NCBI GenBank assembly: GCA_016935015.1
Contig: JAFGRT010000061.1
Coordinates: forward strand, 1-60,512
DNA: 60,512 nt
Direction of reading: 5' to 3'
Source of the DNA: Acidobacteriota bacterium
Lineage (GTDB): Bacteria; Acidobacteriota; JAAYUB01
Below are positions 5,882 to 54,520 of the stretch, piece after piece (position 1 is the first letter of the stretch; each line of letters opens with the position of its first letter). The translations under genes were made by a program, and so were the position numbers. A model generated the notes under the pieces. It had not been told where the DNA came from, ran no database searches, and worked only from the letters and a program-made list of their open reading frames with translations.

Positions 5882-8800
5882 TGGCGTTCCTCCTTCAGGT
5901 ATTTTTCCAATACGTCATCGGGGATACCCTGACGGCTGCCGGTTGTGCCCAGCACCACCGGCCGGTACTGCACCGGGGCGTCGCCGCCGGCCACCAGCAG
6001 CAGGTAGTCGCCGGGCGGGAGCTTCCGGAACATCAGCGGACCCCGGGCCATGACCCGGTTGTCCATGTCCGTCAGCCAGGCCGTGAGGCGGTCGGTGTCG
6101 GTGCGGATGCCGGCGCCGACATTGCCCGCCACCGTCACCGTGAAGGTGTAAGCCTGAATTTCGCCGGGCCGGATGAGCCGGACCGGGGCTTCCTCGCCGG
6201 GGGGCAGCATCTCGGGTTCCAGATGCGTACAGCGCAGGACGCCGGTCCGGGACTGTCCGGCCAGGGGGCGGGCGCCCAGCCGGTACGTGCCGGCTGGCAG
6301 CCGTCGGACCAGGTGACGGTCGGCAAAGGTGCTGGCCGCCCGCAGGTCGAGGACGGCGGCGCCGTCTTGGAGGCTGATCACCCCGGGCGCGTCGGTGACT
6401 GCGGCCACCAGTCGCGGCGCCGCCAGGGTCAATGTCCAGGCCTGGGGTTCGTTCTGCAGCATGAGGAGGCCGGGCGTGAGCGGGACGGGCACCGTTTCGG
6501 CCTTCCCGGCCGCCAAACGGCAGGCGGGCCGATCCGCCGCGTCCATCCAGACGCTGATCAGCCCCGGGCCGTGGCGGATTTCCAGAATCCCCGGCGCCGC
6601 ATCGAACGTGGCGATCCAGGGTCGCTCCCGCACCGCGCGCGGCTCGCGCAGCCGGCCGTCGGCACCCCACAACCGGGCGGAAAGGTCCTCGCCGGTGATG
6701 TACAGCCGCTGACCGGCCGGCAGAGCGGGCACGTCAGCCTGCAGAGTTCCGGCCCTCGAAGCCACGGTTTCGTAGCCGTTGTCGGGCGTGATCCGCACGG
6801 CCTCCGGCCGCGGGGCCGGGATCTTTTCGGCCCTGAACAGGGCCGGGGCGGCGGCGGTGTTGAGAATCGTCAACAAACCGCCATTGGTGTTGAGCAGGCG
6901 TTCGCCGTTTTCCTCAAGGCAGGCGACCAGGCCCTGCGGATCGTCGCCCTGCCAGGCATAGGCCATCATGCCGCGGCCCATGGACAGCCGCAGTGACTGC
7001 GGCGAGTCGGGCAGGGTCAGCAGCAGGGAACGGCCGGGAGGGATCTCCTGCTCCAGCGATGCGATCTGGCGGAAATCGCGCTGCCCCAGGGGCGGGTAGG
7101 ACGTCAGGCGCAGGGTCACCCGTTCGCTGCCCGACTCGCGCATGCCCGCCGAATGGATCACGAGCCGGTCCCCGGTGGACCACAACCGGGCCTGGTAGCT
7201 CCCCTTGCCGGGGATACCGAAGAAAGTGCCGGCCGGCTGGGCCAGCATGCCGGCCCAGCGGTATTCCTCCGGTGGTGGCTGGCCGGCCGGGTAGGCGCTG
7301 ATGCCCACCGGACGGCCGACGGTTTCCGCCCGGAGCAGCAAGGGCGCGTCCAGATCCTGCTCCAGCGCGCCGTGCAGGGGCATGTCGCCCAGCAGGACCG
7401 TAACCGGTCTTTCCCGACCGATCACGAAGGGCTCCAGCCGGACGTCGGCGGAGTCCGGCGCCACCAACCAGCCGCCGTCGGCGGCCAGGGCCACCGGCTC
7501 TCCCTGGAGGGGCAGACACGGTCGCTCCAGGGACGGGGCGAAGAACAGCTCCGTCCCCTCGGCCAGGCAGCGCCAGCTCAACCCGGCGGTGTCCCGCAGC
7601 CGGGCGGCCGTCAGGGCAGGTTCCAAGCGGCTTTCGCCCGTCAGGTTGATGGTGCGGAAATCGAGGGGCGCGGCGGCGATCTCCGCTGTGCCACCGGCGG
7701 ACTGCCAGGCCAGCAGCGTGTATTCGGCGTCGGCGGCCAGGGGGACGATCAGCCGATCCTCCCCTTCGGCCAGCAGGCGCCCCTGGCGGTAGAGGGCCAG
7801 TCCGGTGCGGCCGGCGCTGCCGGTGAAACGCACCAGCCCTTTCTGGCGGGCGGTGAACGGGATTTTCAGCACCGTTTGCGCCAGGTCTTCCCGGACCGCA
7901 AACGGCACACTTTGAGTAGAGAGGGACTTTTCCGGCCGTTCATCCATGTTCACGGCGAACGGTTGCACATCCGGGCCCACGGCCACCAGTTTCAGTTGAT
8001 ATTTCCCCGGCGGGAGACGCCGGGAGATCAGGAAATTCCAGTCATCGGCCCGGTCGTCGTTCCAGGCCAGCAGTTCGGTCAGGTTCTCGTCCCAGAGATA
8101 GGCCTTGACGTCGGTCCGGCCGAAACTGGCGATGTCCTGCAGCGCCTCACGGCTGACACTGACCCGCAGGGTGTACGGCAGCTCCGGCACCTGCTGGGAC
8201 ACACCGGGAATGAGGTCCTCGGTGGTCATCCGGAGGGTATAGGGTACCCGGTTGTTCTCCTCGACGCTGCGGACCTCGATCCGATAGTCACCGGCGGCCA
8301 GCACGCCCTCGGCGAAACCGTCGCGCACCGTCATGGCGTCGGCTCCGTCCGGACCGCGGAGAGTCGCTGTGAGGGTCGGTTTCAGGTACACGTAGACCTT
8401 GGCTTCGGCCGTCATCGCCAGGGTGTAGACATCGGGCGGCCGGCCCGGCTGCTCCAGCCAAATGTTGTCCAGGGGCTGGTTGAGAATCAGGGGATGCGGC
8501 CCCTTGCCGCGGATTTTTTCCGGTTCCGTCACTCGCTGCAAGGTGACCACCCGGCGGCTGTCCACTGGTTCCGGCAGGGAAAAATAGTGGTATTTGCCGG
8601 GTTCCAGCTCCAGGGTGATGGGCCCGACCTCATCCGTGGGGAGGATTGGCCAGCCGTCGGCGTCCTCCAGCCGCCGGGCAAACGTCTTGCCCAGGCCGAA
8701 AGTATCCAGGTGATACGTGCCCGGGTCCGCCAGGGCGAAAGGCAGGCGGATGGCGCCGTCGGCCGGTACGCTCCGGCGGATGACGCTGCCCGGTGCCAGT

Positions 8801-11028
8801 CCGGAGACCTCCGCCAGAGAGGTGCGCCGCAGGTGAATGCCGGCCCGGCCGGCGCTGTTGCCCCGCACCTGGACGGACACCAGGTATTCACCCGGCCGGA
8901 AGTATTGCTGCACCAGCGCGTTCCGGCCGATACCGTTTTCGGTGGCGGCGAATAGCGTGGTGGTCAGGCGGGTCCGCACCCGGATCTGGGTGGCCAGGCG
9001 GCCGCTGGTTTCCAGTCGGTAGAGGCCGGCTTCCGTGACCCGCAGGAGGTAAAATTTGGCCTGTCCGCGGGCGAAATCGACGAAGACGGGATCATCCTCC
9101 GTCAAAATCTTCAGGAGTGCGGCCCAGTCCTGCAGCTGGGGCGGGGGCGGCGGCACCAGCGAGACGGCATTGGCCCGGATGTTGAACAGGGCGGTGCTCG
9201 TGCCTGTATTTCGAAGCGTCACCTGGTAACGGCCGGGGGTGACCAGATTCTTCAGATTGTGGGGGGCTTCATTCAGACGCAGCTCGAACGAGCCGCCCGT
9301 CACGTCCAGCAGCGAGTTTTCGGCCACCGTGGCCGGAAAGGCAACCTCTTCGCCCGGATGAAGCGTTACCGGTAACGGTTCCGTCAGATCGACGGGCAGG
9401 GACCGGACCAGAAGGCCCGACTCCACGCCCGGGCGCTGGTTCAGCCAGACGGTGTAATAATTGGCCGAGCGATCCAGCGTCACCTGTGGCCAGTGGATGC
9501 TCTGCCGCTGCGGTCCAATCGTGGCGGCCGACGCTGCCCAGTCCATGGCGCCGGCTTCGTCTTTGAGGCGCAGGTCGAAGTGCAGGATGCCCGTCGAACG
9601 GGGATTCATGGCCAGCACGTAGTAGCCGCGGGTGAGTTCCAGCTCGCTGCCGGCCGGGACAAACGGCGGCGGACGGTAGCCGCGCGGTCGCGAGACCATG
9701 AACGGCGCCGCCTGATATTCGGCCGTGGCTCCGGCGGCCGGGTTTTCCTCGATGACATAGGTGCCGGTGGTCTCGACGAACAGAAAGACGCTGGCCGCGT
9801 TGAGCAGGTTGACGCGGCGGATCAGGGGGGCACCGGCGCCGACATTGAGGGTGCTGGCTTCCAGGGGAGTTTTGCTGTCCGAGGCAATGAGGAGGGCGGT
9901 GGCGTCGACGGCATCCCGCCCGGCGGCGGAGTGGATGCTGGAAATCCAGAACTGGTTGGGCTTGTCAGGTAGCTGATGGCGGTCCTGCTGGACGAAATAG
10001 TCCAGTTCCAGGGTGTCGCCGGGCGCGGCCGTGACGATGATCCAGTGCCGGTTACTGCCGTAGTTTGTATAGAGGCTGCACCAGGGATCACGGGATTCCT
10101 TGGTGATTTCCGTGGTTTCACCGTAACCGAACCGGCTGTCCTTCTCCGACCAGTAACGGACCTGCAGCGTCGTCGCTTTCTTGTCCGGGCGCACCAGCTG
10201 GAAATAATTGGTGTCCCGTCCCACCAGGAACGCATCCCGGCCGAACGGGGACATGGTGAACAGGCGTTGCCCGTTTTCACCGAGGAAAGGTACTCCCCAG
10301 CGCAGGTAAAGGGAATGGGCGCCCGTGTTCTGGGTCCAGTCGGCGGCCGGGCCGCCGTAACAGGTCAGCAGATAGAGTCCGGGATTGAGATCATGGTGGA
10401 ATTCCAGGTACTGCATGGGCTGTCCGGCCACGGGCTCGAATACGCTGGCGGTGGGACGGACGTCGGCCAGCCAGGCTCCGTCCTGCCAGAGCCGGCAGTC
10501 CCGCAGGTTGCGGCCCATGATCTCGAGCCGGAGGGTCTGGCGCTGCTCGATATGGATCCACCAGGAACGCTGCTCGAGGTCGTCCATGGCCGACTCCACC
10601 ACCTGCCGCGACGGCAGAAAGGGCAGATCACGGATATCGGCGGCATCATGCATCTCCCGAAAGGGGGCGACCGTGGCCGTGACCTCGCCGCTCCCCTTCT
10701 TGTGCGAATGCAGGCGCAGCTTGTAGGTGCCCTTGTCCAGCAGCAGATCGAGGCGGCCGTCCGTTTCACCTGCCGTGCCGTCGGCAGCGAAGGGACCGGC
10801 CATGCGGTCGAGGATTTCCAGCCGGGTTCCCTGGCCGCTCTGGACCTGGATGCTGTAGCGGCCCGCCTGATGGACGTGGAGCAATGTGTCGTTCGTCCCC
10901 CGGGCCTCGAAGACGGCTTGGGCCAATTCGGCGGGGGGGCTCGACGGGTCCGCCGACGGGAATATGACACCCGGCCACGCTGCCATTCCCAGAATCAGGA
11001 TGATGAGACGCCTGGTCCATGCTGACAT
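5878..11028 (-). CDS. Giant secreted protein of unknown function, coupled to alpha-2-macroglobulin
   Basis: I do not recognise a family for this 1716-residue protein. It begins with a signal-anchor-like segment (RRLIILILGMAAWPGVIF) and has no further strong membrane segment, so it is probably exported. The body consists of repeated beta-rich stretches that end in motifs such as LPPGKYQLKLV, LEPGKYHYFSLP and FRPGEYLVSVQV. This pattern resembles pre-peptidase C-terminal (PPC) or other beta-sandwich modules. No catalytic motif is visible. The start at 11028 is chosen because GAGGAGG lies about 8 bases upstream; an open frame continues to 11658, but that part is Arg/Pro/His-rich noise. The gene overlaps the alpha-2-macroglobulin gene by 4 bases, which suggests that the two products act together at the cell envelope. 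A scaffold or partner role is inference. Confidence 0.8.
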   Translation of the reverse strand: MSAWTRRLIILILGMAAWPGVIFPSADPSSPPAELAQAVFEARGTNDTLLHVHQAGRYSIQVQSGQGTRLEILDRMAGPFAADGTAGETDGRLDLLLDKGTYKLRLHSHKKGSGEVTATVAPFREMHDAADIRDLPFLPSRQVVESAMDDLEQRSWWIHIEQRQTLRLEIMGRNLRDCRLWQDGAWLADVRPTASVFEPVAGQPMQYLEFHHDLNPGLYLLTCYGGPAADWTQNTGAHSLYLRWGVPFLGENGQRLFTMSPFGRDAFLVGRDTNYFQLVRPDKKATTLQVRYWSEKDSRFGYGETTEITKESRDPWCSLYTNYGSNRHWIIVTAAPGDTLELDYFVQQDRHQLPDKPNQFWISSIHSAAGRDAVDATALLIASDSKTPLEASTLNVGAGAPLIRRVNLLNAASVFLFVETTGTYVIEENPAAGATAEYQAAPFMVSRPRGYRPPPFVPAGSELELTRGYYVLAMNPRSTGILHFDLRLKDEAGAMDWAASAATIGPQRQSIHWPQVTLDRSANYYTVWLNQRPGVESGLLVRSLPVDLTEPLPVTLHPGEEVAFPATVAENSLLDVTGGSFELRLNEAPHNLKNLVTPGRYQVTLRNTGTSTALFNIRANAVSLVPPPPPQLQDWAALLKILTEDDPVFVDFARGQAKFYLLRVTEAGLYRLETSGRLATQIRVRTRLTTTLFAATENGIGRNALVQQYFRPGEYLVSVQVRGNSAGRAGIHLRRTSLAEVSGLAPGSVIRRSVPADGAIRLPFALADPGTYHLDTFGLGKTFARRLEDADGWPILPTDEVGPITLELEPGKYHYFSLPEPVDSRRVVTLQRVTEPEKIRGKGPHPLILNQPLDNIWLEQPGRPPDVYTLAMTAEAKVYVYLKPTLTATLRGPDGADAMTVRDGFAEGVLAAGDYRIEVRSVEENNRVPYTLRMTTEDLIPGVSQQVPELPYTLRVSVSREALQDIASFGRTDVKAYLWDENLTELLAWNDDRADDWNFLISRRLPPGKYQLKLVAVGPDVQPFAVNMDERPEKSLSTQSVPFAVREDLAQTVLKIPFTARQKGLVRFTGSAGRTGLALYRQGRLLAEGEDRLIVPLAADAEYTLLAWQSAGGTAEIAAAPLDFRTINLTGESRLEPALTAARLRDTAGLSWRCLAEGTELFFAPSLERPCLPLQGEPVALAADGGWLVAPDSADVRLEPFVIGRERPVTVLLGDMPLHGALEQDLDAPLLLRAETVGRPVGISAYPAGQPPPEEYRWAGMLAQPAGTFFGIPGKGSYQARLWSTGDRLVIHSAGMRESGSERVTLRLTSYPPLGQRDFRQIASLEQEIPPGRSLLLTLPDSPQSLRLSMGRGMMAYAWQGDDPQGLVACLEENGERLLNTNGGLLTILNTAAAPALFRAEKIPAPRPEAVRITPDNGYETVASRAGTLQADVPALPAGQRLYITGEDLSARLWGADGRLREPRAVRERPWIATFDAAPGILEIRHGPGLISVWMDAADRPACRLAAGKAETVPVPLTPGLLMLQNEPQAWTLTLAAPRLVAAVTDAPGVISLQDGAAVLDLRAASTFADRHLVRRLPAGTYRLGARPLAGQSRTGVLRCTHLEPEMLPPGEEAPVRLIRPGEIQAYTFTVTVAGNVGAGIRTDTDRLTAWLTDMDNRVMARGPLMFRKLPPGDYLLLVAGGDAPVQYRPVVLGTTGSRQGIPDDVLEKYLKEERQ

Positions 11029-25669: not shown

Positions 25670-26287
25670 TCAGGGGGGTGGCGATCCGGCGGATTCCGGA
25701 CGGGACGACGCCTCGTCACCGTAGCGCTGCCACCACCATAGGAAGGCGAACATCAGGCCGGGTGTCTTGGCCTTGCTCTCGTCGTAGAGGAAATTCCAGA
25801 TCCGTTCCTGGGGCAGCTTGATGACCTCGATATCCTCATTTTCCACCCCGCCGCCGGCGGACCGGCGCTGGCGGCCGGTCACCTCGGCGTAATACAGATA
25901 CTGCCGGGCGCCCGATTTGCCCACGGAAGTGTAAAAGGAAGTCACTTCCCGCAGATCAGTCAGGGCAATCTCGTAGCCGGTCTCTTCCCTGATTTCTTCC
26001 CGGGCGATCTCGGCGAGGGGCAGTTCCTTGTCTACCAGACCGGCGCACAACTCATAGGTGAAGCCGTCGCCGTTGTGCAGGTAGACCGGCGGCCGGAACT
26101 GCTTCACGAGAATGAAGGAATGGGTGTCGATTTCGTAAAGCAGCACCGCGATGCTGTCATGCATGACGGCGATGTTCCAGCGTCGCCGCCGTCCATTGAG
26201 GGTGTAGTCCATGCGCTTGAGCTGAATGTACTCCACCCCGCCCAGATCGCTGATGACCACGTCCTTGAGAATGAATTCCTTGCCCAT
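25670..26287 (-). CDS. NUDIX hydrolase, NUDT14/UDP-sugar diphosphatase-like
   Basis: The 205-residue protein is a NUDIX hydrolase, probably acting on a nucleoside diphosphate sugar such as ADP-ribose or UDP-glucose. The box reads GLVDKELPLAEIAREEIREE followed by TGY. Compared with the canonical GX5EX7REUXEEXGU, the first Glu is Leu and the Arg is Glu, while the metal-binding EEXXEE core is kept. The preceding ELCAGLVD and the following SFYTSVGKSGARQYLYYAEV resemble eukaryotic NUDT14. ATG 26287 is preferred since GAGG is 8 bases upstream; ATG 26293 is possible. It lies 23 bases after the PfpI gene, probably in one operon. Confidence 0.87.
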   Translation of the reverse strand: MGKEFILKDVVISDLGGVEYIQLKRMDYTLNGRRRRWNIAVMHDSIAVLLYEIDTHSFILVKQFRPPVYLHNGDGFTYELCAGLVDKELPLAEIAREEIREETGYEIALTDLREVTSFYTSVGKSGARQYLYYAEVTGRQRRSAGGGVENEDIEVIKLPQERIWNFLYDESKAKTPGLMFAFLWWWQRYGDEASSRPESAGSPPP

Positions 26288-26310
26288 ATTCATGTCCTCG
26301 GGGGGATAGT

Positions 26311-27632: not shown

Positions 27633-28457
27633 TCATGGCTTCCCGGGGGCGGCGGACGAATGCGGCGGGTCGGCCAGCCGGTTGATTACAAGTTGCGCCG
27701 CCTTGCGGCCGGACAAAAGCATGCCGCCGAAAACGGGCCCCATCCGATGACTGCCCAGGGCGGCGGCAGCGGCCATACCCATGACCACCAGGCCCGGAGC
27801 GATTTCCATGGTGTTGCGGACCACCATTTCCTCCGCCGGCCCGGCCCACATGGGGCCCTGACCCATGATCCGACCACTGGGCGTGGCGAGCGCCATGCCG
27901 TGATCCTGGGCCATGCGGGCGATGGAACAGTCATGGCCGGTGCCATCGATGACATGGCGGGCGGCGATGGTCAGCGGATCGACGTGCAGCCGGGTGAGTT
28001 CCACCGACGTCCAGTTGATGACCAAACCGGCGATGCGGCCGTCGATGACCATGATGTCCTCGACATGGATGCAGTTCATAATTCGTGCGCCGGCCCGCAG
28101 GGCGCTGAAAATCAGTCCAGCGGCCAGTTCGACGGAGTCGGCCAGGTGAGATCCGGCCATGTCGCTGTCGTGGTGCCGGATGCCGAACTTGTCCAGCAGT
28201 GGAAGGGCTTCCTCTTCCACCACCACCTCGTTGAATTTCATGCCGCCGCCCCAAATGCCGCCGCCCGGAGCCAGCTTCTTCTCAAAAACGGCCACCCGGT
28301 GACCGGCCTCGGCGATGAGCGCCGCGGCGGTGAGTCCGGAAGGACCGGCGCCGACGATGGCGACATCGAGGTCGAGGACCTCCTCGAGTTTCTGCATATA
28401 CGCGCGGAGAATATTGCGTGAGACGTCGATTTCCCGTATGCTCAAGGCGCTGACCAT
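27633..28457 (-). CDS. thi4: Thi4-type ADP-thiazole synthase, His (non-suicidal) form
   Basis: The 274-residue protein matches the Thi4/ThiI-type thiazole synthase that makes the ADP-thiazole precursor of thiamin from NAD, glycine and a sulfur source. It has the Rossmann motif VAIVGAGPSGLTAA, a GGGIWGGGM segment, GTGHD and the C-terminal MGPVFGGMLLSGRKAA. Where plant and yeast enzymes have the sulfur-donating Cys (QSCMDPN), this protein reads RLHVDPL with His158. Archaeal and anaerobe enzymes of this His type are known to use free sulfide and turn over repeatedly. A near-consensus promoter lies upstream; no TPP riboswitch is seen. The Shine-Dalgarno site is poor (CTGG). The Cys-rich merR-type gene follows. 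Confidence 0.9.
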   Translation of the reverse strand: MVSALSIREIDVSRNILRAYMQKLEEVLDLDVAIVGAGPSGLTAAALIAEAGHRVAVFEKKLAPGGGIWGGGMKFNEVVVEEEALPLLDKFGIRHHDSDMAGSHLADSVELAAGLIFSALRAGARIMNCIHVEDIMVIDGRIAGLVINWTSVELTRLHVDPLTIAARHVIDGTGHDCSIARMAQDHGMALATPSGRIMGQGPMWAGPAEEMVVRNTMEIAPGLVVMGMAAAAALGSHRMGPVFGGMLLSGRKAAQLVINRLADPPHSSAAPGKP

Positions 28458-51474: not shown

Positions 51475-52143
51475 ATGAAACCCTTGCCGCCTATGCCGAT
51501 TCTCTACCATATTTCCGCCGGAACCGCGCCCGCGGACCAATGTCCGGAACCGTGTTTCTCCAACCTGGCAGCGGCGGGAGTGCCCTTGCTGCAACTTCGG
51601 GAACCATCGCTGCCCGCGAGGGATATCGTGGAGTTGGCCGGTCGGCTGCGTCGGCGGTGTCTCTTCGAGGGGGTCCGTATCCTGCTCAATGACCGTTTCG
51701 ATATCGCGCGGGGGGCCGGTGTGGACGGCGTGCATCTGCGGTCGGGCAGTGTTCCGGTGAAAAGGGTGCGGGAGTTGGTGGGGCCGGATTTTGTCATCGG
51801 CTGTTCGGCCCATGAGCTGGCCGATGTCCGGCGTGCGGAAGACGGCGGTGCGGATTTCGTGGTGGTGGGTCCGGTGTTCCCAACCCCTTCGAAGCGTGGC
51901 CACCCCGGTCTGGGCCTGGAACACCTGCGGCGGATCCGGCGCCAATCATCCATCCCGATCCTTGCCTTGGGGGGCATCCGGATCGCCAATGCCGCCGCCG
52001 TCCTGGACTGCGGCATCCAGGGCCTGGCCGGTATCCGCTTTTTTCACGACCGGCAGGAATTGGCGGCCATCCAGGCGTTGGTAGCCCAGCGACAATCCAG
52101 CGCCGGCGCTGCTTGTCAGGCCGGCCAGGACTCCTGCCCGTAG
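51475..52143 (+). CDS. thiE: Thiamin-phosphate synthase (ThiE/TenI family)
   Basis: The 222-residue TIM barrel protein joins the pyrimidine and thiazole halves of thiamin. It shows LLQLREPSLP, RILLNDRFDIARGAGVDGVHL, VIGCSAHELADV, the phosphate-site GPVFPTPSKRGHPGLGL and PILALGGI. The Lys of the usual QLREK is Pro here (LREPS), and confusion with the TenI branch is possible; the NDR motif and the pyrophosphate loop favour ThiE. Its 3' end overlaps the convergent tenA end by 28 bases. Confidence 0.85.
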   Translation: MKPLPPMPILYHISAGTAPADQCPEPCFSNLAAAGVPLLQLREPSLPARDIVELAGRLRRRCLFEGVRILLNDRFDIARGAGVDGVHLRSGSVPVKRVRELVGPDFVIGCSAHELADVRRAEDGGADFVVVGPVFPTPSKRGHPGLGLEHLRRIRRQSSIPILALGGIRIANAAAVLDCGIQGLAGIRFFHDRQELAAIQALVAQRQSSAGAACQAGQDSCP

Positions 52144-52775
52144 ACCGCGTCCCAGTATAGGTACTCATAGCGGCTGGCCGTTACAAACATCTCACGCAGA
52201 GGCCCGTAGGGATACGTCCGGGTCACCTCGTCCACCAGGGCCGTCAACCGGACCACCAGCTGCTGGTATTCGTCGGTACCGTAAACCGACGCCCATTCCC
52301 GATACAGGGGCTGGGGATTCTCTCCGAGGCGTGTTCGGTGATGTTCGGCGATGGCGGCATACGTCCAGAAACAGGGCAGGGCCGCTGTCAGCGACTCCGG
52401 GAACGGCTTCAGACAACTGGTGGCCAGCAGGAACGAGCGGTAGGAAAGATTGGCCGGGATGGGTTCCACGGCCGCCGCCTCGACCACAGTATAGCCGAGT
52501 TTTGTCAGGAATTGCTCATAACTCTGGAGCTCACTCACCGCCTCCAGGTGGGCGATTTCCAGAACGCGGCGCCGCTGATCGGCCGTTTCGGCCCGCGAGG
52601 CGATCAGGCAGAAGTTCTTGATGGCATCGACGAGATAATGATAGTCTTGCAGGATGTATAAAACGAACTTCTCGAGGGGGAGGCGGCCTTCGTACAGCTC
52701 CACTACGAAGGGATGGCGGAAGATTTTCTGCCATACGGGATCAGCGTCTTCGCGCAAGCGCCGGCTGACGTTCAT
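52116..52775 (-). CDS. tenA: TenA family aminopyrimidine aminohydrolase (thiaminase II)
   Basis: The 219-residue all-helical protein matches TenA, which salvages thiamin breakdown products by hydrolysing aminomethylpyrimidines. It shows PFVVELYEGRLPLEKFVLYILQDYHYL near the start and the active-site LPCFWTYAAIAE, in which Cys135 falls at the same number as in Bacillus subtilis TenA; thus it is the TenA_C type. Its ATG overlaps the stop of the thiD-methyltransferase gene by 4 bases, so it is controlled by the same TPP riboswitch. Confidence 0.9.
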   Translation of the reverse strand: MNVSRRLREDADPVWQKIFRHPFVVELYEGRLPLEKFVLYILQDYHYLVDAIKNFCLIASRAETADQRRRVLEIAHLEAVSELQSYEQFLTKLGYTVVEAAAVEPIPANLSYRSFLLATSCLKPFPESLTAALPCFWTYAAIAEHHRTRLGENPQPLYREWASVYGTDEYQQLVVRLTALVDEVTRTYPYGPLREMFVTASRYEYLYWDAVYGQESWPA

Positions 52776-54283
52776 GACTTCCTCCCGCTTACAACCACAT
52801 AGTCTCCCCGGTCGTAACCGGGGACGGGCGGCTCCACGGCCTCGTTGGTGTAGCGAGGATGGCGGGTCAGGGTCTGCACGAATTCCAGGTTCCTGAAACC
52901 GTTTTCCTCCAGCAACTGCCGGATGTCGTCGGTGGAACACCAGTCGACGCCGGCCATGAATTTCAGGGGATAGGGCGCGGGCGGCGCCGTCTTGGGATCA
53001 TGGTAGCCGCGCCGGTAGGCCAGGTCGTACATCAGGGCGTAGGAGCCTTCCCGCGGCAGGTAGGAGATGACGATGGCGCCACCCGGTTTGAGGACGCGCC
53101 GGGCCTCGCGGATGGCCTGTCGGCGGTCCGGGACGTAACTGAGGATGGTGCCCAGGAGGACCGCGGCAAAGGATTCGTCCGGGTAAGGCAGATCCTCCGC
53201 GCCGGCGATCTTGACCTCCACGCCCCGTTGCCGGGCCAGGGCGGCCATGCCTTCCGCCGGCTCCACGCCCTGCCGGATGCCCAGCCGCTCTTCGAACAGG
53301 CCGCTGCCGACGCCGACGCTAAGGGTGTGTTCCGGATCGGAGATGAACGCCTTTTCGGCCAGCAGCTCCGATTCAAACACCGCCGGATTCCGGCGGAACC
53401 AGTCGTCGAAGTCGCCGGCTTCCTCCACGAAGGCCGACGCCCGGCCGGCGGCCAGCAAGTCCAGGTTCCGCAGGAATGGATGGCCGCGCTGTTCCAGCAG
53501 CAGAAAGGCGAAATGGTTGGTGGGACCGTGTCCCGCTCCCAGGCGCAAGGCATAGTCGATGGCCATGGTGATGTAGTCCTTGGCGCGGGCGACGGCCTGG
53601 GGTAGGGGAAGGCCCTGGCCCAGGCCAGTGGCGATGGCGGCGGACAGGGTGCAGCCGGTGCCGTGGGTGTCGCGGGTTTCGATGCGCGGACATCGGAATT
53701 CGGTGAATTCGCGGCCGTCATAGAGCAGATCCAGAGCATCGCCGGGCAGGTGTCCGCCTTTGAGATAGACGGCCGCCGGACCGAGGTCGTAGATGCGGCG
53801 GGCGGCGGCCTGCATGTCCGCCGGCGACTGGATGGTCAGGCCGGCGAGGGTTTCCGCCTCGGGGATATTGGGGGTGACCACGGCTGCCAGAGGCAGCAGT
53901 TCGCTGACCAGCGCCGCCTGCGCATCCTCCCGGATAAGACGGGCGCCGCTCTTGGCCACCATGACCGGGTCCACGACCAGGTTGGGGACATCATAATGCC
54001 TGATTTTCTCCGCGACCGTGTGGATGACTTCCCGGGTGGCCAACATGCCGGTTTTGGCCGCGTCCGTTCCGATGTCCGCCGCTATGGCTTCGAACTGCAA
54101 GGCGATAAATTCAGCGGGGACGTCGTGAATGCCCAGCACTCCCACCGTATTCTGGGCCGTCAGCGCGGTGACGACACTCATGCCGTACCCGCCCAGGGCG
54201 GCGATGGTCTTCAGATCGGCCTGGATTCCGGCCCCTCCGCCGGAGTCGGACCCGGCAATGGTCAAAATTCGTTGCAACTTCAT
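52772..54283 (-). CDS. thiD: ThiD kinase fused to a SAM-dependent methyltransferase
   Basis: This 503-residue protein joins two domains in one frame. Residues 1-265 are HMP/HMP-phosphate kinase Thi[60 protein letters not shown] and the anion-hole [17 protein letters not shown]. Residues about 290-503 are a class I methyltransferase: motif [16 protein letters not shown] near 322-336, GVEPAEGM, the [17 protein letters not shown] strand and [16 protein letters not shown]. The two parts are joined by a linker without a stop. ThiD fusions with ThiE or TenA are common, but this partner is unusual; its substrate is unknown. The start at 54283 has AGGAGG 9 bases upstream. A TPP riboswitch and terminator precede it. 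Confidence 0.9.
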
Positions 54284-54324
54284 GATGGATTTTCCTCCTC
54301 TTCCCGCAGATTTCGGAAAGGCCA

Positions 54325-54365
54325 CAAAACAAAAAGGACATCGCCGCGGGGGGATGCCCTTTTTG
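54325..54365 (-). terminator. Riboswitch-controlled intrinsic terminator
   Basis: On the minus strand AAAAAGGGCATC pairs with GATGTCCTTTTT (one G-T wobble) around a CCCCCGCGGC loop and runs into TTTTTGTTTTG. It lies between the TPP aptamer and the thiD start, so TPP binding would end transcription early. Confidence 0.85.
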
Positions 54366-54369
54366 TTCA

Positions 54370-54446
54370 TGATCTCCCTGCGCTGGCATTATCCAGATCA
54401 GGTTCAAAGGGTATGATCTCAGCCTCGACGGCACCCCTGCGCATCA
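54370..54446 (-). promoter_or_regulatory. TPP riboswitch (THI element)
   Basis: The minus strand shows the conserved THI-box parts in order: AGGGGTGC, CTGAGA, ACCCTTTGAACCTGATCTGG, ATAATGCCAGCG and CAGGGA, closed by a short TGAT/ATCA P1 helix. It controls the thiD-methyltransferase and tenA genes, switching them off when thiamin diphosphate is plentiful through the terminator that follows. Confidence 0.96.
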
Positions 54447-54520
54447 GTTGTCAAGGTTTAGTTTTACTTCATTTTTCATCTGGAATCAAGGACAACCGGC
54501 TGGCGGTGACGTTTCGACGG

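Follow-up and report, generated by a model that had tools for sequence, protein, structure and literature searches.

A ThiD–methyltransferase fusion coupled to tenA behind a TPP riboswitch: a putative enzyme of thiamin salvage or repair

The locus

The window, a stretch of 60,512 nucleotides from an Acidobacteriota genome (contig JAFGRT010000061.1), carries on its reverse strand a gene in which the thiamin enzyme ThiD is joined to a class I S-adenosylmethionine (SAM) methyltransferase (MT), preceded by a TPP riboswitch and followed by tenA (Table 1). The first-pass annotation of this DNA had described one uninterrupted frame encoding a complete ThiD and then a class I methyltransferase. This is borne out, since the frame from 54283 to 52772 has no internal stops and both parts score above the cut-offs of the corresponding family models, TIGR00097 and PF08241. 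The sequence GAGGAGG lies upstream of the start at 54283. A longer variant of the reading frame begins at 54370, that is, inside the riboswitch and terminator. The same annotation had placed the operon at 52772-54446, of which the lower coordinate is the end of the fusion and not of the operon; tenA continues to 52116, beyond that range.

Table 1. Features of the window and of the related loci discussed in the text (positions are those of the respective stretch).
Feature	Position	Strand	Basis or remark
ThiD–MT fusion	52772..54283	-	single open frame, 503 aa + stop
ThiD domain, residues 1-259	53507..54283	-	PF08543, TIGR00097
Linker, residues about 260-282	53438..53506	-	alignment; residues 245-287 of low model confidence
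TM1293-like class I SAM methyltransferase domain, residues 283-503	52775..53437	-	PF08241, 1vlm
TPP riboswitch aptamer (THI element)	54358..54448	-	Rfam RF00059, 71.6 bits (gathering score 54.3)
Intrinsic-terminator-like hairpin, U-rich 3' arm	about 54323..54371	-	overlaps the 3' end of the aptamer match
tenA, thiaminase II family, 219 aa	52116..52775	-	PF03070, 141.6 bits (cut-off 22)
thiE/tenI-like gene	51475..52143	+	PF02581, 159.5 bits; convergent, 28-nt overlap with the 3' end of tenA
Thi4 (thiazole synthase)	27633..28457	-	PF01946, 233.6 bits at 27729-28421; same contig, 24 kb from the fusion
Full ThiD–MT fusions	L064, L066-L072		L066 and L070 are the two full-length members of the family of G380
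ThiD–MT fusion cut by contig end	L073		G380
Thi4–MT fusion	L063
Compact thiamin operon	L063 4800-10616		Syntrophobacterales bin
Thi4, then MT as separate genes	L065
MT and TenA-family gene	L151 5243-6786		G522
Distant MT (28%)	L074		set aside

The N-terminal part of the fusion is a predicted HMP/HMP-P kinase, matching its family models over their full length and above their cut-offs. The match to TIGR00097 covers residues 6-258 with 347.6 bits (cut-off 204.95), as befits a complete ThiD, and that to PF08543 reaches 324.8 bits (cut-off 27). HGTGCT and QNT, which we take to be the catalytic motifs of ThiD, are invariant across nine fusions. The C-terminal domain is a predicted SAM methyltransferase with a TM1293-like class I fold over its whole length. 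Residues 321-406 match PF08241 with 59.3 bits (cut-off 21.2), and residues 289-502 match 1VLM, the TM1293 methyltransferase of Thermotoga maritima, with an E-value of 1.5e-30. The model of the domain (pLDDT 87.8) superposes on 1VLM with a Z-score of 31.4 and an rmsd of 1.7 over 205 aligned residues; the next structures follow at Z 23.6 and 20.1. Class I methyltransferases bind SAM through a GxGxG motif and an acidic residue after strand 2. The MT of the window reads GVGSG (motif I) and GVEP at these places, and the three motif glycines and the glutamate are invariant in 11 aligned rows. The linker is longer in the window than in the other fusions according to the alignment. In a structure model of the whole fusion it stays below a pLDDT of 50, and the mean of 70 is too low for the arrangement of the domains to be read.

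The region upstream of the fusion had been annotated as a TPP aptamer followed by a terminator, and this too stands: a match to RF00059 above the gathering score lies upstream of a thiamin gene, and a terminator-like hairpin follows as expression platform, features which together characterise a TPP riboswitch. The 89-nt stretch with the hairpin (54284-54372, reverse strand) folds at -35.6 kcal/mol (z -4.07), and none of 200 shuffled sequences was as low. This was the sole RF00059 match found in the source genome, with 150 of 265 candidates scored.

Downstream, the start of tenA overlaps the stop of the fusion by 4 nt, confirming the ATGA coupling proposed earlier, at 52775. Asp44, Tyr112, Cys135 and Glu204 are invariant in 10 TenAs and are matched in the alignment by the same letters in the PDB chains 1to9 and 1yaf, which we take to be B. 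subtilis TenA, these positions presumably being the catalytic ones. TenA thus looks active, with the Cys and Glu columns kept. The TIGR04306 equivalog model for TenA gives 124.3 bits, below its cut-off of 130, and the equivalog name is not claimed. The convergent gene behind tenA likewise scores 132.9 bits with the thiE equivalog model, below the cut-off of 145.1.

Recurrence of the fusion in other genomes

The same two-domain architecture occurs elsewhere. Including that of the window, ten ThiD–MT fusions are now known, the nine others comprising eight complete examples and one cut by a contig end. When 396 genomes of the phylum were searched with the whole fusion, three candidates being scored per genome, the matches listed included one two-domain match, that of the source genome itself, and a fusion in G380 of the same phylum that is interrupted by a contig end within the MT. 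The family of G380 supplies three carriers among 38 genomes: G380 and two with full-length copies, 55% and 53% identical. A scan of a wider genome collection with an alignment of three MT domains yielded 12 loci; it relied on two short patterns taken from the beginning of the MT, so that the counts of fusions are lower bounds. No further fusions were gained from the phylum of L064, where four genomes were reached. The MTs of the eight complete further fusions are 57-63% identical to that of the window.

These relatives bear on the possibility that two genes had been joined by an assembly or sequencing artefact, in which case related genomes should show the frame stopped or shifted around residues 265-290. 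The source assembly is indeed a draft in 237 contigs. However, the frame is open, and the eight full-length fusions from other genomes span the same junction without any such interruption; with the architecture recurring in independent genomes, an artefactual join can be rejected, its probability being close to nil.

Carriers of the ThiD–MT fusion are assigned to Aminicenantes, Zixibacteria, WOR-3, Eisenbacteria and Krumholzibacteria, to an archaeal-labelled bin and to an unclassified bacterium. The eleven named records of the MT clade (L063-L073) bear the labels Syntrophobacterales, Zixiibacteriota, Deltaproteobacteria, Aminicenantes, Eisenbacteria, WOR-3, Krumholzibacteriia, Euryarchaeota UBA202 and 'bacterium Bin_043'. 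All eleven are metagenome bins, in which single taxon labels, the archaeal one above all, may be wrong. Being bins, they offer no native host for genetics, which leaves enzymology as the practical approach. The archaeal label belongs to L071, where the fusion and tenA (7200-9322) lie on an 85-kb contig assigned to Euryarchaeota UBA202; no tRNA was found in 16.7 kb of this contig, and the label would be explained either by gene transfer into an archaeon or by wrong binning.

Phylogenetic trees suggest that the fusion of the window arose separately from the other ThiD–MT fusions, albeit with marginal one-clade tests. In the ThiD tree (35 rows, with L041 left out as the same G380 fusion and L054 counted as fusion-derived) the ThiD of the window groups with those of Syntrophobacterales and G705 (100/97), apart from the other fusions, and a constraint placing all fused ThiDs in one clade is marginally rejected (p-AU 0.035). 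In the MT tree (54 rows) the MT of the window groups with the Thi4-linked MTs and G593 (97/94), and a single ThiD–MT clade gives a p-AU of 0.055. A single origin of all ThiD–MT fusions is disfavoured by these two values, and the favoured reading of the trees is that two ThiD–MT fusion events and one Thi4–MT fusion event took place. In G092, a ThiD of the fused clade (L054 1486-2322) has a frame that stops a few residues after the MT begins, so that the MT appears to have been lost. This genome gave no TenA match, and since it is without both, MT and TenA can be missing together; the MT step is dispensable in this lineage.

Coupling of the methyltransferase to tenA

The regular neighbour of the MT is tenA. 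Directly downstream, its start overlaps the end of the MT by 4 nt (ATGA or GTGA) at 11 loci, namely the window, L063, L064, L066-L072 and L132, the last on a contig which ends inside the MT, any fusion partner lying beyond the contig end. At L065 there is no tenA start in the 115 nt left on the contig after the MT. Two more distant members of the clade lie outside this count. Around the MT of G660, 48.7% identical, no thi gene among those sought was found within 6 kb. That of G522 (38%) is followed by a divergent TenA-family gene, non-overlapping and apparently retaining the Cys and Glu positions, and no other thi gene among those sought turned up within about 6 kb. In the 38 genomes of the family of G380, TenA (E 1e-5 or better) occurs in two, both of which have a complete fusion (hypergeometric 0.0043); this co-occurrence reflects the same two-gene unit as the coupling itself and is not independent of it. 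Mean pairwise identity in nine fusions is 67.5% for the MT, 64.3% for ThiD and 58.9% for TenA, so that the MT is constrained at least as much as its partners.

Control by a riboswitch, earlier put forward as a point to check, is not a constant companion of the fusion. The aptamer is present in one of nine ThiD–MT fusions for which at least 1.1 kb of upstream sequence was available, the one being that of the window. In the other eight no TPP aptamer was found at the gathering score or up to an E-value of 1, and riboswitch control is rejected as a general trait of these fusions. L069 falls outside the count, its contig starting 7 bases before the fusion. The Thi4–MT operon of L063 does have a TPP aptamer.

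Association with Thi4

L063 places the MT in a different thiamin context. Its order is TPP aptamer, thiamin pyrophosphokinase-like gene, ThiD–ThiN fusion, Thi4–MT fusion, tenA and thiC, in which Thi4 was confirmed by PF01946 and ThiC by PF01964, whilst ThiN and the pyrophosphokinase were named by sequence recognition. From this gene order the MT lies inside a thiamin operon. At L065, Thi4 and the MT are encoded by distinct genes that share a reading frame and have three bases between them; the record gives this contig a coverage of 1.03. A Thi4 gene (E below 1e-68) is present in 10 of the 12 MT-bearing genomes, the source genome included.

These observations raise the alternative that the MT belongs to the thiazole branch, acting on the Thi4 product, on its dephosphorylated forms or on the nicotinamide set free from NAD by Thi4, with the link to TenA secondary. 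The fusion in L063, the adjacency in L065 and the 10 of 12 genomes with Thi4 all point this way. Ten MTs, however, that of the window among them, are fused to ThiD rather than to Thi4, and the Thi4 of ThiD–MT genomes, where present, is on another contig or, in the window, 24 kb off. TenA is moreover the more constant neighbour. The co-occurrence with Thi4 is weakened as a signal by a control: 11 of the 38 genomes in the family of G380 have Thi4, two of them among its three fusion genomes, which is no clear enrichment (hypergeometric 0.20). A role in the thiazole branch accordingly appears improbable.

The wider TM1293-like family

The MTs linked to thiamin genes, together with those of G660 and G522, form one clade (100/100, stem 0.86) apart from ordinary TM1293-like MTs. 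TM1293 shares their fold and family, but the thi-linked MTs are set off by a stretch of their own, REGSYA..YDLA..PYP.KF, which is largely conserved among them. The 1VLM entry is named 'possible histamine N-methyltransferase'. A search of the literature under the name TM1293 found no paper, and we know of no proven substrate.

A survey of ordinary TM1293-like MTs covered 38 loci and as much as 6 kb of flanking sequence, which was compared with seven thi reference proteins; G660 and G522 were counted apart. Three lie near thi genes: in G705 (L139 5992-10201) a free TM1293-like MT ends a thiD-thiN-thi4-thiC cluster, and in G613 and G702 the MT converges on thiD beside thiE and tenA. A thiamin role for TM1293-like MTs at large was set aside, three of 38 loci with no chance control being suggestive only.

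The survey also bears on the notion that the fusion is an accident of operon structure, the MT serving outside thiamin metabolism or merely as a SAM sensor and having been joined to thi genes in no shared pathway. In line with this, 35 of the 38 loci show none of the seven reference proteins, and the clade member in G660 also lacks the thi genes looked for. Against it, the MT has been fused to two different thiamin partners, ThiD and Thi4, this in several phyla and mostly with tenA kept alongside, and even distant family members sit by thi genes at the three loci described. An accidental union is thus doubtful.

Proposed function

The proposal that the MT works in thiamin metabolism gains from the ties to thiamin genes, namely ThiD–MT fusions in other phyla, the Thi4–MT operon and tenA in 11 loci; riboswitch control is not a trait shared by the fusions. 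It is likely that the MT is a thiamin enzyme in the TenA branch. Its close coupling to TenA speaks for the pyrimidine side, and our main reading, to which we give a probability of roughly 0.6, is that the MT is a dedicated thiamin enzyme working with TenA and ThiD in the salvage or repair of the pyrimidine. A ThiC match is absent from five of the 12 MT-bearing genomes, G403 (94% complete) and G380 (92%) among them, and present in seven; the ThiC-less genomes fit a salvage role. Pyrimidine salvage has points against it as well: the thiazole enzyme Thi4 is sometimes the partner of the MT, G660 is an exception to the linkage, and TenA acts on its known substrate aminopyrimidine without any methylation.

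Outside the making of the antivitamin bacimethrin, no SAM methyltransferase is known to us from thiamin synthesis or salvage. It is attractive to consider how such a step might precede TenA. The MT would methylate a pyrimidine-bearing product of thiamin degradation, for instance the amine AmMP or a thiol formed from thiamin by sulfide, and once methylated, the group borne by the C5 methylene would leave more readily. TenA would then hydrolyse the methylated product to HMP, which ThiD would convert to HMP-PP; in the window, low TPP would cause the riboswitch to turn the operon on. This particular chemistry, methylation of a pyrimidine substituent ahead of TenA, is a guess that is rather unlikely to prove right. 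In a bolder form, and one to be held just as loosely, anaerobes may carry the MT as a mobile module for repair, one that became fused more than once to whichever thiamin enzyme adjoined it and that activates a dead-end pyrimidine (sulfide-derived HMP thiol to a sulfonium, or the amine) for release of HMP by TenA.

Several known systems resemble the operon in part. ThiD fusions on record are ThiE–ThiD, ThiD–TenA, such as THI20, and ThiD–ThiN, and the types appear also in the titles of NCBIfam models and in the THI20 entry. These join ThiD to another protein of thiamin metabolism; in the window the partner is a SAM methyltransferase, not an established thiamin enzyme, and tenA lies next door. 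The multi-domain ThiD models of NCBIfam match the ThiD part alone, below their cut-offs. ThiD fusions as such are thus already known. No description of a ThiD– or Thi4–methyltransferase fusion was found in the open-access literature searched, PMC8474910 and PMC8454699 included. In Nitrospina, tenA clusters with thiD, which the authors took to mean AmMP recycling (PMC12236431). This salvage pair has tenA and thiD as in the window but no methyltransferase, and the word methyltransferase is absent from the main text of that paper.

Bacimethrin clusters resemble it in composition, in that thiaminase I occurs there together with a SAM methyltransferase and a ThiD-type kinase (PMC5627462, PMC12345177). 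An analogous antivitamin route would have the MT O-methylate a hydroxymethyl pyrimidine and ThiD phosphorylate the product. The operon of the window, however, consists of the fusion and tenA only, with the convergent thiE-like gene behind, and has TenA (thiaminase II) in place of thiaminase I. Six proteins of the window were scanned, three of them without a match to any Pfam family, and neither thiaminase I nor the thymidylate synthase and deoxyribosyltransferase of such clusters was detected. The MT of L063, furthermore, lies in an operon with thiC and thi4, and the operon of the window is under a TPP riboswitch. An antivitamin route is very unlikely on these grounds, and pyrimidine salvage or repair remains the preferred reading. 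Unrelated microbes share a conserved MT–TenA pair, fused in some to ThiD and in others to Thi4, which points to a thiamin reaction that has been missed. If this is true, some at least of the TM1293-like methyltransferases, whose family is represented by the solved structure 1VLM, would gain a class of substrate.

Other thiamin genes of the source genome

Besides the fusion, the source genome has a second, more distant ThiD (41%), a free TM1293-like MT (36%), and ThiC in addition to Thi4. The Thi4 of the window probably serves the same pathway as the fusion, separately from the fusion operon. It reads LHVD where yeast Thi4 has its suicidal Cys, which suggests a sulfide-dependent type of Thi4. 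An open reading frame nearby (25670-26293) looks Nudix-like by eye.
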